From positions 1,203,001 through 1,267,000 of the forward strand of contig OU744454.1 of assembly GCA_916610825.1 (NCBI GenBank): a stretch of DNA of 64,000 bases. Direction: 5' to 3'. Positions 1,958-19,900 of the stretch are shown here, piece by piece. Under the pieces are notes generated by a model. That model was not told the origin of the DNA. It worked only from the letters and a program-made list of their open reading frames with translations, and ran no database searches. Both the position numbers and the translations under genes were made by a program. The DNA comes from Haliclystus octoradiatus (Eukaryota; Cnidaria; Staurozoa; Stauromedusae; Haliclystidae). Every line of letters begins with the position of its first letter. Within the stretch, counting starts at the first letter, position 1.

Positions 1958-4900
1958 GTATGTGCTTTATGCTGTTAAAAAGAAAACGGCTTAGCTTATT
2001 TCAATGTAGCAGATGAACTTGAATAAAAACTGTAGAAAATATCATGAAAAGGATAAAATAATTTTTAGCGATACAGTCAATCTCGGCTAATATCCCCCAT
2101 TTTAATGTCCCACCTTGCTTAACATCCCCACATAAAATTGATTATATTTTCCATCATCCACACAATTTCTTATATTCCACTTTGCTTAATATCACACACT
2201 TGAAATAAGTTTGACTGTATACTAATTACTTGGCAGTTGGCACTCCTGCAGGCTTGAGCGCTTTGATGATATCCATTTTCAAAGGTTATCAAATTTGATT
2301 TAATTTAGTCTTGTTGGTTTATGTTTATAGAAGTGTGTGAATACAACGGTGTTAAGCACAACGTCAATGAAAAATGGAGTGATGCTAATGATGCATGCAT
2401 AAGTTGTTTCTGCGCCCCTGAAACGCCACCCACGGTTATTTGCAGCACTGTTCTCTGCGCTAAGCCAGACTGCAAGAATCCTATTAAGAAACCAGATGTA
2501 TGCTGTGATTTCTGTCTTCCAAGTGAGTGAATGCATTTGTTTTCTACCTCGCTGCATGTATAACTTATAGAACCCGAGATAATCGGTCATAATTCGTCAT
2601 TACATATTGCCATGTTAAACCCAGTTATAATTGTAACCTCCAAAAACCAGCGAAATAGAGGTATGGGCAATTCTCTCTTCTAATCATTACCACACACAAG
2701 TTCAGCAAATAGGTAAGATAGGCACTATTACAGAATGATCCAAAATTAAATAAACACATATCCAAGTCAAACTGTCTAATTTAGATAAGATAGGATTGGA
2801 TAAAATTAAATAAGATTAAAAATGTAATACTGTTTTTGTATATCTTTATAGAGAATATTTCCGTGTGTCATCAAAAATTACACAAAGCAAATGAGATGCT
2901 ATCATCCGATCCTCCAATGGTTGGTGTTTACGTGCCAGCATGCAAAGACAATGGTGACTACGACGATGTTCAATGTCATGCGTCATCTGGTATGTGTTGG
3001 TGTTCAGATGTCAATGGTAACGAGATAACAGGAACACGATCAAGAAATGAGCCTAAATGTAACAAAGGTACGAAAACAACAAGTTGGTATACTAATGTCG
3101 CGTTTCTGTATGTAATACAGTGAAACCTGTATATAAGTGACGGCCATACGAATGGTCAATAAATTGACCATGATATGCAAGTGGTCTTTATAGATAGGGT
3201 CAATAAGAAATACTTATACATTGCTAGAGTGACCATTATAGACTGTATCACTGTATCAAGTTTTTTTTCTTAATATCTATCTATGAAATGTAGAGGTTTT
3301 GGCTGTAATATGCAGATGGTCTTTATATAAAGGTTGATTTGGTAAAGTGACTGCTTAGACAGGGACAGATCGAGCAGACCTTGGCTGCAAAAGTGCAAAT
3401 GCTAATCTCAGATATAGACACTGCCTATCAATTTCAGTTTATTCATGTAGGTTGTATTTTATATTTCCAGCTCCACTATCAAAATGTCAACAACACATAT
3501 CCAATGTGAATAAACGTATGCCTCTAGTTGGTGCTTATATGCCTATGTGTTATTCAAACGGTGATTATGCCACTGAACAATGTCACGGATCAACTGGTTA
3601 TTGTTGGTGTGTTGATTCTCAAGGGACAGAAATACGTGGATCACGTGTGAGGGGTCAGTCATCTTGTAAAAATGGTATGTGCTTCATTATATGATAATTA
3701 TACTGTATTTTGAGTTACATCTTCAACTGATTTCAAGGGTCTGGTTACATTATAGAGTAGATTTTAAGAGGATATATTTTTAGAGAAAGGCCATGGCTTT
3801 TGCAGCATCAAACATGTACAGCAACAGTAAAGGCCATCTGACAAGAAATAACAATCTCAGATCATCAGCATTTAGAATCTCAGGCCGCTTAATTGGTTAT
3901 TTCAAACACATCAAAATCTAATTATTGACAATTGTTGTGCTGTTACCACAACGATGATCGATTTCACGTAACAGAATCCTTGATGATTTTCAACATTTGA
4001 TATTTGGACTATGCATCAGAAAATGATCAACTATTTTCTAAACTTTCTCATACATTTGAAAATCTAGGGTGTACCACATTCTCCACTTTTATTGTACCCT
4101 GATAGTGATCGCCTCAATTTTACATGTCTAGTAAGACCTCAGAATAGGTATGTAATGATTAATATTTGTTATTCTATCTGCAGGAGTTGTCCTAGAAGGT
4201 TCAATTAAATTCAGTTCTGCTGCATTATCTGGATCACTTGATAAATCGTGTTTGGTAATAAATGTCCAACCAAATATTTACTGCGATGAACCTACGGGTA
4301 ATGCTGAAGGAGATATACCCTGTGAAATACCAACGATTGGCACTATCACATACAATGATCCAAAATTTACAGATGGCACTTTCAATTATGCATTGACAAT
4401 CGAACAGAATACATACCTCAGTTTCGCCGTCACAGCAACTCTTAATGTCGATTGGTGTAAAGATAGTAAATCATGGATTAAAGCCGGAGATTATTTAAAC
4501 ACATATTCACATACGTTTGAATATAAAAGTAATCAAAAACGTGTTATCAAAGATATTACAATTGATCCATATGGACACAAAGCTAGAGGTAATTATTTAA
4601 CTCACATTTAAAAACTGATACTCGAGGGAACTGCTTAAAGTCAAGCTCATCATATTGACCACCCTTATTAAGCAGAATCTCTTTAAGAGGGACCATGCTC
4701 CAGGTCAAACTTTTCTTGATTTGTTATGATTGGCTTGGTTTTAGCATTGTGTGAATTTTCTTATAAAGCTTCATATTCATGGGGCTCTTAAATAGTCACT
4801 TAAGAGGAGTTTTACTATTTTTTTTCTGGATTCGGCTGCAACTCTTGTGACACTGATAACTGACCAGGTGCAAACTATATTGAATAGATAGAAGACTTAA

Positions 4901-16900: not shown

Positions 16901-19900
16901 TAGGGCGATACCATCTCAATTATCTTCTTCTAAATTTATATTTTTGATTTTATTTATAGAACCGCAATTCCACACCGTGGAGGGATCAATCATGCTACCT
17001 GATTTGACTGCCGCCATCTTTATCAACAATTCATGTCTTCATGTTTATGTTGAAGATGTATCATTAGCGGATGCGGGGGCCATACTGTTAGGAGAGAAGT
17101 ATTATCAAGTTTCAGATAAATGGTGGATATCTCAACCATACTCAATTGATTTCAAACCAACAGTTAATATGGTGGTGGGGCGTGTTGCCGCAACAATGAA
17201 CAACGCATCTTGTTCAAATGATACAAAGACTGATGTTAGTTTCTTTACTGATACAATCTTCTCATTTCAAATCGGAAATGGCACAATTAAGAATCATTAC
17301 GCTGATGTCAAGTTAGTTCCACTCGGTAAGGATACTAAACCTGCTCAAATCAACCAGCATAGCTCTCAGCATAGAAGGTTGATCAATAAAAAGTGAAGCC
17401 TATAAATATTAGACATTTAATACCTAGTGTAGGTGGTTAGGATGTTTAATATTTTACCTAAACCCACAGAGTCTTTGGTTTAATACCTGGCAGAAGCATT
17501 ATTGGTTAGCGCCAAGAAGGGTATCCAGCCATCCAATCACAGACCCTTCATAAAAAATACCAAGAATTTCATTCATCAATCATTGCTGGAGTTGAGAATT
17601 GATAAGGTCCAAACAAAATTGAAAATGGTCTGACTTGGTTGTGTGAACTCTGATTGTTTTCAGCAAACCAACACAGTTGAACTGTTCTCTATTGATATCA
17701 TAACAAATATCATTGTCTTGTGTCTGGTATGTAATTTTTTATATAACTTGTTTTCAGTGAAAGATGTCGTTTTGCCACCGTATGAAATTAGTGGCAGTAT
17801 TTCCTTCCCAAAATCTGTTACTGTTCCAAAAGGATCTTGCCTTCTTGTTATCGTTGAAGATATAAGTCTAGCTGATATGGTAGCACCTGAACTTGGACGT
17901 GATCTTCTTGATTTGGATAAAATTGATTTAAGTATGGGGCAATTAACATACAATGTGCAATTAATTGACGGTGATAAACTACTCAAAAGACGTGTCTCTG
18001 TAAGAGCAAATTTAGCTGTTGGTCGTTGTAATAATTTTGGAATTCGTTACGGTGATTATCACACAGAGTCCACCTTGCCAGTTGATTTTGGCGCAGGAGA
18101 CACAAGGTCATTCATCGTTGATGTGTCTCTAACAGAATACTGTAAGTACAAATATTCTGCTCCTTACTGCTGATTCTCAATAAAAATGATTTTAAATAAA
18201 TGTATAACTGCATAAAAATAGTTTATTTAATTATTTAATTGGATGCCTGTCTAGTGTACTGTTGTCAATAGTTGAAAAGAAAAGCAATTGCATCTCAGCA
18301 GCCATTATGTTTATGTTAGACCACCAGTTTTTAATGTTGCTTGTTTGTTTGTTTTAGCTACCAACAAGACGTGCAGTCTCAAAGGTTACTTTCGCATTTA
18401 TTCACACAATACTACATTTTCGCATCCAGGCAAGCGTTGTCTTGACTGTAAATGTTTTGATGGCACCGTCATTTGTGAACGTAAACAATGCATGCGTTTG
18501 TCATCATGTAATGAAACAATTATAATGGAAGGTGAATGCTGTCCAAAATGTGCATCGTTAGCAGTTTGTGAAGATCAAAAGAGTGGCTCTATTTATAAAC
18601 CTGGTGAAACAGCTTACCTTGATCGTGAACCTGGCAGTTGTGTAGAGTGTATATGTGAAGGAAACGGTGCGTTTAAATGTGAAACAAAAGGCTGCGAAAG
18701 ACTTTCATGTTTGAATGTTGTTCAACCATCAACTAGTTGTTGTCCTGTCTGTGCCAAGGACATCAAATGCAAACATCCAATCACTGGTAAGAATTTTGTC
18801 TTGGTTCTTCAGTTTTTCACAAGATCAGTTAGTCAGAGCTATCTGGGGTTAGTTAGTCAGTAGCTTAAAGGCTACGATTGGAACATGCAAGTAATACAGC
18901 CAATATCATAATCAACTTCAACTGTCAGTTGTCCCTTGCAATTAGACAAATAATTACAATATTAAGCAATTGGCGCACAAGAGGCACGTAAGGAGAAAAC
19001 GAGAAGGCATCAGAAAATTACGAGCCGCCTCGGCGAGTAATTTTCGCCTTTGAGTTTTCTCTTGAAATGACTCGATTGCGCCAAATGTCTATAGCTCATA
19101 GGAAACTGTGCACCAATTGCTTTGTATTATCTTTATTAATTAGCACAACTTTTAAAAGCATTTACATTTCTTTGTTTCTTACAAAATGATTTTGAAAATT
19201 CCTGATCAAATTGGAAATTCTCATTCGTGATATCAAATTCGAATTGTAAGATCGATTGTGTTTTCGTAGAAAGTTTTGCTCTGGTGATTTGACGTCAAAC
19301 TGTAAACCAATCAGATTGATTGAATCATTTCCGTTATAACACAATGGAATTTGATTGATTTTGTTCTACGAATCTCATCATCAGACATGCTATTTCAACC
19401 TCGCATTTTTATTCTTGTGTTTACACAAATTATAAACATCATGTCTAGGGATGCTATTTGACGCGGAAATCGCTATTCGAATATTCGGATTTTGATAAAT
19501 TTAGTATACTGTACTGACTTATCCGATTTCCTAAATCTTTTATCTGATCTCATGTTTTGTACCACAAACTGTAGTTTGGTCATTTTGCCTTGATAACCAT
19601 TTTCTTAATCACACGCAACAACAACAACAACAAATAAAGCTACTAAATATATAATTATATGTATCTGTTTAAATTTATTCAAAACGCTTTCGCTGCCCTC
19701 CGGTAGCTTCTTCAGTGAAATTTCATAAATAATAAAATGGTTATCAAGTTAAAATTACCAAACTCAAAACAATTTTAGTATTTGAATAGTATTCAAATAA
19801 TCCTATTGTTTACGAAAACAAATGGTCTATCGTTTGCAAATAATAGAATCAGCCTTGCTCTCAAGTTATTAGCAGACAAGTCTCATTTTAAATTTTCATA

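Follow-up and report, generated by a model that had tools for sequence, protein, structure and literature searches.

The YbaY/YscW domain (Pfam YscW, PF09619) is a domain family known from bacteria. The described systems closest to the one reported here are one-domain lipoproteins of the Escherichia coli YbaY type and two secretin pilotins, the alternative pilotin of Vibrio cholerae (PDB entry 5WEC) and ExsB of Pseudomonas aeruginosa (2YJL). The extracellular modules of animals are usually considered to derive from a restricted repertoire that is eukaryotic and mostly old. We analysed a stretch of 64,000 nt (the window) from Haliclystus octoradiatus (assembly GCA_916610825.1, contig OU744454.1, positions 1,203,001-1,267,000, forward strand), which carries on its plus strand a gene with eight YbaY/YscW-like modules, designated E1 to E8. 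The contig has 16.7 Mb, the genome 261.9 Mb in 33 contigs. We consider it likely that the modules represent a divergent animal branch of the YbaY/YscW family, that they form disulfide-locked sandwiches in a secreted matrix or coat protein of the zona pellucida (ZP) type, and that they have spread from a stand-alone gene by shuffling.

Eight modules of two sub-types

A first-pass annotation, made from the sequence alone, had proposed eight bacterial-type modules within an animal extracellular protein. The exons begin where they had been placed: E1 (4184-4588), E2 (7555-7956), E3 (8922-9329), E4 (11336-11683), E5 (12574-12942), E6 (14193-14558), E7 (16960-17325) and E8 (17758-18141), all on the plus strand. 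All are open, preceded by AG and followed by GT, with phase 1 at both ends, and each represents one module on one exon between phase-1 introns. They belong to a model of 28 exons, which codes for 2,802 residues including 208 cysteines and has phase 1 at 26 of its 27 junctions. The 5' end of the gene is apparently located outside the window.

Five modules carry a SLADA-type motif, as had been described (AEDVSLADA in E4, AEDVSLADV in E5, AEDVSIADA in E6, VEDVSLADA in E7, VEDISLADM in E8). The underlying D-x-S-x-A-D block follows the second strand in E4-E8, is missing from E1-E3 and recurs in some copies elsewhere in the genome, for example in one copy each at loci L106, L111, L112 and L123. A TDT motif is present in most of the motif-bearing exons (YYTDT in E4, YFTDT in E5 and E6, FFTDT in E7), with YHTES at this position in E8. 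The closing strand VDVKLV, which had been attributed to most of these exons, is found in exact form only in E4; variants occur in E5 (KDVKLA), E6 (MDVKLV), E7 (ADVKLV) and E8 (VDVSLT), and it is absent from E1-E3. Because E1-E3 lack all three motifs and carry a second cysteine pair, the eight modules form two sub-types, which share 25% identity and match each other with an hhalign probability of 79%. The loop between the two extra cysteines of E1-E3 stands where the SLADA loop would be.

A first pair of cysteines is common to both sub-types. Both residues are kept in all 25 aligned module rows (one row being a duplicate), while none of 29 bacterial domains has cysteines in the same stretch. 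N-glycosylation sequons occur in five of the eight window modules. Among E4, E5 and E6, dN/dS is 0.16 to 0.26 with dS already at 1.2 to 2.2, which indicates that these three are maintained as protein. For the pairs with E7, silent sites are saturated in two of three, and dN/dS is 0.34 in the remaining one.

Relationship to the bacterial YbaY/YscW family

Pfam YscW is the best match for each of E4-E8. It is the sole Pfam match for E4 (E 0.017), E5 (E 7.8e-4), E7 (E 0.05) and E8 (E 0.007) and the top match for E6 (E 0.0024), in all cases below the gathering score. E1-E3 are unmatched. An NCBIfam scan of the eight exons returned stray weak matches only.

Profile-profile comparison with the bacterial family, which had been suggested as a check, gave a match beyond chance. 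The hhalign probability of the E4-E8 profile increases from 83.9 against E. coli YbaY alone to 94.6 against seven bacterial sequences and to 97.8 (E 1.2e-12, 104 columns) against 29 bacterial YbaY-type domains, obtained by thinning 80 domains at 75% identity. The score of 72.4 compares with a best value of 24.1 among 200 column shuffles. When the eight motif columns are masked, a score of 40.3 is retained against a shuffle best of 21.6, and none of the 200 shuffles reaches either score, so that the likeness does not depend on the SLADA words alone. Against the PDB, the E4-E8 profile finds 5WEC with E 1.8e-6 (runner-up 1.5) and the profile of all eight modules finds it with E 7.1e-6. As E. coli YbaY itself matches 5WEC at E 1.5e-17, 5WEC is a YbaY-type protein.

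The bacterial profile was also applied to the 1,491 six-frame open reading frames (ORFs) of the window. E4-E8 score 24-30 bits, the next ORF 5.0 bits, and reversed modules at most 5.4 bits. A profile built from the eight modules recovers these eight, by construction, at E 6.2e-35 or better; the next ORF has E 0.25, so that at this sensitivity the window contains no further copy. E1-E3 are assigned to the family because a profile of the copies from elsewhere in the genome matches both E1-E3 and the bacterial domains. On these sequence comparisons, E4-E8 share common descent with the bacterial YbaY/YscW domain, and E1-E3 join them through their paralogues and their predicted fold. The family identity proposed at first pass is thus borne out directly for E4-E8 (by Pfam, by profile comparison with shuffles and masked motif, by the PDB search and by the E8 model) and only by this indirect route for E1-E3.

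Predicted structures

In PMC8877628, YscW is tabulated among the Ig-like-fold families. Predicted structures were compared for one module of each sub-type. The AlphaFold model of E3 has a pLDDT of 85.2, and the VIA lists for E8 and E3 both place 5WEC first and 2YJL second, in agreement with the fold that had been expected. The modules superpose on the two pilotins over 96-108 residues, and the models indicate a common beta-sandwich. In the E3 list, fimbrial proteins (8.5 and 8.4) score practically the same as 2YJL (8.6).

The modules might be derived from an animal sandwich of transthyretin-like or Ig-like type and share only the fold with YbaY, by convergence. Confidence in the E8 model is modest (pLDDT 68), and Foldseek ranks the transthyretin-like structure 3UAF between 5WEC and 2YJL; both observations count against a pilotin-type assignment. 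In the VIA lists, however, 5WEC is 4.0 to 5.3 and 2YJL 1.7 to 3.2 Z units above the best transthyretin, sequence profiles match the bacterial family even with the motif masked, and transthyretin is absent from the PDB sequence matches up to E 10. We regard convergence as very improbable and, on the lower Z values and the missing sequence match, have provisionally rejected an origin from the transthyretin / 5-hydroxyisourate hydrolase fold.

A genome-wide family

The genome was searched with E8, E5, E3 and four further modules. Sixteen distinct modules were read outside the window, which with the eight in it makes at least 24 in the genome, so that the amplification that had been proposed extends well beyond this gene. 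One copy (L104) is located about 7 kb upstream on the same strand and probably belongs to the window gene; it shares the four-cysteine pattern of E1-E3. Contig C11 carries a cluster of seven copies at 14.149-14.175 Mb (L105-L108) and one copy at 1.994 Mb (L113). Contig C5 carries seven copies (L109, L110, two in L111, L112, two in L123), that in L110 being marginal (E 0.004).

Taken together, the copies outside the window match the bacterial domains with E 2.8e-11 over 73 columns (score 64.7, against a best of 15.7 in 100 shuffles). The probability of their match is 98.7% with E4-E8 and 99.5% with E1-E3. Ten of their ORFs were scanned against Pfam: YscW is the best match in six, and in two of these the score (22.9 and 24.4 bits) exceeds the gathering threshold. 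Individually, 10 of the 24 modules match the bacterial profile at E < 0.01 (calculated for 100,000 sequences) and nine match more weakly. Among 14 control genomes, PF09619 has a match in E. coli only.

The seven C5 copies have a simple layout: a start codon (ATG), a hydrophobic, signal-peptide-like start, one domain and a stop, all in a single frame. For one of them (L123_2789) the complete frame is seen only in locus L127, which overlaps, and the start of the L112 copy is uncertain. No clear lipobox was seen in these copies by eye, no signal-peptide program having been run. Six of them (L110, L111, L112, L123) have a C-terminal tail with two extra cysteines followed by GP (five copies) or AP (one copy); the tail is absent from L109. 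On C11, Kunitz and TILa/VWC-like modules (L108:6075-6581, minus strand) are located beside the 14.17-Mb copies, and Kazal modules (L113:2497-2769 and 6238-6561, plus strand) beside the copy at 1.994 Mb.

Bacterial contamination or misassembly next to animal exons has a negligible probability. Splice sites of phase 1 flank the modules, all of which contain a cysteine pair missing from the bacterial set, sequons occur in five of the eight window modules, and the exons form one coherent series on a 16.7-Mb contig, with further copies on a contig of 29 Mb. No supporting point was found, and this explanation was rejected.

Evolutionary history

In a tree combining the 24 modules of this genome with 29 bacterial domains, all animal rows are on one side of a branch with support 100/99 (96/89 when the eight window modules are used alone). 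The bacterial branch joins, with weak support (70/70), at a point that separates six of the stand-alone copies from the seventh and all other modules. If bacteria are taken as outgroup, six stand-alone genes diverged first. The tree has long branches, and a warning of long-branch joins was given by the program. The phylogeny with bacterial homologues, also suggested at first pass, thus separates the animal modules, while the donor cannot be named because the branch between animals and bacteria is long.

The first-pass annotation had allowed for either transfer or deep ancestry. We lean towards an old transfer from bacteria as the founding event. The chances are about even that an ancestor of this animal acquired a bacterial gene for a secreted one-domain lipoprotein of YbaY type, and that this, having lost the lipid anchor and gained the core disulfide, became an exon-shuffled extracellular module, now present in at least 24 copies and recurring in secreted proteins that contain ZP, VWC and inhibitor modules. 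The domain may instead go back to an ancestor shared by animals or by eukaryotes and have been lost in most well-studied lineages, without ever having been laterally transferred into this one. The long animal-bacterial branches and the large, diverged family within the genome fit such a great age, but E4-E8 retain a D-x-S-x-A-D block almost identical to the bacterial one and the seven C5 copies are laid out like bacterial YbaY genes. Neither point is decisive against deep ancestry, which we consider a serious possibility of somewhat lower probability.

Searches for relatives in other organisms contributed little to this question. The E4-E8 profile, run against a database of 5.8 billion proteins, gave no match at E <= 10 among 3,181 candidates, a search of low power because the bacterial family itself was not returned; an alignment of E. 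coli and Vibrio sequences recovers that family from the same database (1,533 of 1,587 candidates). The C-terminal 1,525 residues, used together with the E7+E8 region, gave no match at E <= 1 among 2,554 proteins of about 840-2,670 residues. As this length range misses a product of at least 2,802 residues and the first search had low power, neither result is good evidence of absence from other animals. An animal-profile scan of a collection of genome contigs gave 70 pattern matches, none of which was confirmed. A second contig scan (two bacterial and two animal rows) gave 286 stretches with 272 relatives, of which the best 80 were kept; since these are ranked by likeness to the Vibrio query, they do not point to a donor.

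Besides the long branch between animals and bacteria, several observations weigh against the overall reading that the modules are an animal branch of the YbaY/YscW family in a secreted protein. None of the eight window exons reaches the Pfam gathering score of 22.6 bits (best 20.2 bits), and we therefore place them as a divergent sister branch and not as certified members. The PF09619 model applied to the whole genome gave nine candidates and none at E <= 1e-3, and four of the ten ORFs scanned from outside the window have no Pfam match at all. E1-E3 have no direct match to bacterial profiles; with the bacterial profile they give no score, as do the L104 and L110 copies, and the L105 and L113 copies score only 5.0 and 6.6 bits, compared with 5.4 bits for the best reversed module. 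The exon borders are predictions from open frames and splice scores, picked partly by phase. Neither a signal peptide nor a transmembrane segment was found for the window gene, the start of which is outside the window.

The window gene and its proposed function

That the modules are built into a cysteine-rich protein of extracellular type, as had been proposed, is confirmed by Pfam scans of the model, which find VWC, thyroglobulin type-1 and Kazal/follistatin domains and a C-terminal ZP-N and ZP-C. The first complete VWC of the window (2331-2522, 28.5 bits) is followed by two thyroglobulin type-1 exons (2852-3067, E 3.4e-20; 3471-3674, E 3.9e-18; PF00086); the gene seems to extend upstream of position 1. 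Between E1 and E2, three exons encode five thyroglobulin type-1 domains (5043-5480 and 5707-6144, both double, and 6826-7059), as found by Pfam and by our own thyroglobulin type-1 profile, the Pfam scan having covered only part of exon 5707-6144. One more (8080-8295, E 5.3e-20) precedes E3, giving eight thyroglobulin type-1 domains. Three Kazal/follistatin-like exons (9718-9945, 10320-10547, 10686-10904; Kazal_1/Kazal_2/FOLN) separate E3 from E4 and contain the three Kazal domains of the window gene. VWC exons alternate with the later modules, namely one after E4 (12130-12342), two after E5 (13291-13494, 13581-13793) and two after E6 (15109-15309, 15739-15933). Further VWC exons with tentative splices follow E8 (18358-18786, 20116-20253, 20584-20892); the region 20562-20942 has a VWC score of 27.2, slightly below the Pfam cut-off of 27.6.

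The ZP module occupies two exons (21246-21828 and 22017-22278, with the stop codon at 22276-22278). The first is above the cut-offs (ZP-N 57.6 bits, E 1.7e-15; ZP-C 30.7 bits); the second, scanned alone, reaches 24.1 against a cut-off of 24.6. A predicted furin-type cleavage site, RRKR, was read from the sequence 3' of the ZP module (22204-22215). No hydrophobic C-terminal anchor (transmembrane or glycosylphosphatidylinositol (GPI)) was seen before the stop codon, and a further exon is possible. All these features are on the plus strand.

We propose that the protein is secreted and that each YscW-like module is a self-contained beta-sandwich on a phase 1-1 exon, as the models predict. The two invariant cysteines would be joined by a disulfide that stabilises the module outside the cell. 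A furin-type protease may cut at RRKR after the ZP module, whereupon ZP-N and ZP-C would polymerise the protein into a filament of an extracellular coat or matrix. The YscW-like sandwiches would serve in it as stiff, protease-resistant interaction modules between modules of inhibitor type, and the thyroglobulin type-1 and Kazal modules may contribute protease inhibition. The family probably started from a stand-alone secreted one-domain gene, which was duplicated, acquired flanking introns of phase 1 and entered several extracellular genes by shuffling.

With eight thyroglobulin type-1 and three Kazal domains, the window gene might mainly encode a secreted multi-head protease inhibitor for defence, in which the ZP module is a tether and the YscW-like domains are spacers. 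Kunitz, VWC and Kazal modules also adjoin YscW-like modules elsewhere in the genome. The ZP module, however, suggests polymerisation, and matrix and growth-factor-binding proteins, too, commonly contain thyroglobulin type-1 and VWC modules. We thus consider a primary inhibitor function rather unlikely and prefer a matrix or coat protein.

Other elements in and near the window

Long trinucleotide arrays of AAT type at 6150-6575, directly 3' of a thyroglobulin type-1 exon, and at 55956-56211 produce open frames rich in Asn, Ile and Leu. Upstream of the window, a long Pro-Glu-rich tandem repeat (L104:6148-7089, plus strand) follows an apparent half VWC module, and a shorter relative of this repeat is found at 1248-1401 of the window. 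Two domains of KIAA0319 N-terminal type (L103:333-617 and 2095-2574, plus strand) precede the first YscW-like copy by about 10-12 kb. A retrotransposon (27862-32632) is flanked by direct repeats of 179 bases with 99% identity; its minus-strand ORF (28065-32432, 1,455 residues) codes for reverse transcriptase, RNase H and integrase. The region 24528-56956 contains, on the minus strand, fragments of other genes, namely for Pex19, AIG2/GGACT, a protein kinase (near which there is a KA1 domain) and a GTPase of the Ras family. Scans of the window for tRNAs and against Rfam gave no matches.

Comparison with known systems

Among the papers listed in our literature searches, none reports YscW/YbaY in an animal or a protein combining thyroglobulin type-1, ZP and Kazal (and VWC) domains, and those listed for YbaY and PF09619 concern bacteria or unrelated subjects; domain databases such as InterPro, which may hold metazoan entries, were outside their scope. 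Within this scope, the first-pass statement that no animal family with this architecture has been described holds. Term searches in PMC4784904 and PMC7971027 found no passage on YscW, lipoprotein or related words.

If the homology and the shuffling are as proposed, the at least 24 pilotin-type copies, ranging from one-domain genes to exon-shuffled arrays, would show a new mobile animal module in the making. Its stages would be traceable from capture (or retention) through the loss of the lipid anchor and the acquisition first of a disulfide and then of symmetric introns to shuffling. Pfam YscW would gain an animal branch that is largely missed by the current model. The bacterial-type building block seems to be recurrent in extracellular proteins of this animal, and a part of the bacterial envelope may thus have been turned into an animal matrix module.

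The modules share with the family of 5WEC and 2YJL the D-x-S-x-A-D block (E4-E8), the T-D-T block (E4-E7) and a similar closing strand. In contrast to the YscW/YbaY family, the window modules are internal exons, not preceded by a lipoprotein signal with lipobox, occur as internal repeats and have one or two cysteine pairs, with the cysteine-flanked loop in the SLADA position of E1-E3. To our knowledge, no secretin partner is to be expected in an animal. The seven C5 copies resemble E. coli YbaY-like one-domain lipoproteins in having an export-signal-like start and one domain, but differ by the tail of six of them (two cysteines and G/A-P), by the lack of a clear lipobox and by their eukaryotic host. 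With extracellular ZP-domain proteins, the window gene has the C-terminal ZP-N and ZP-C and the furin-type site in common; it differs in that no transmembrane or GPI segment was seen before the stop and in the long array of modules (thyroglobulin type-1, Kazal, VWC and YscW-like) that precedes the ZP module. As far as the literature searched can tell, the domain family is known from bacteria, while the animal host, the added cysteine core and the architecture are new.

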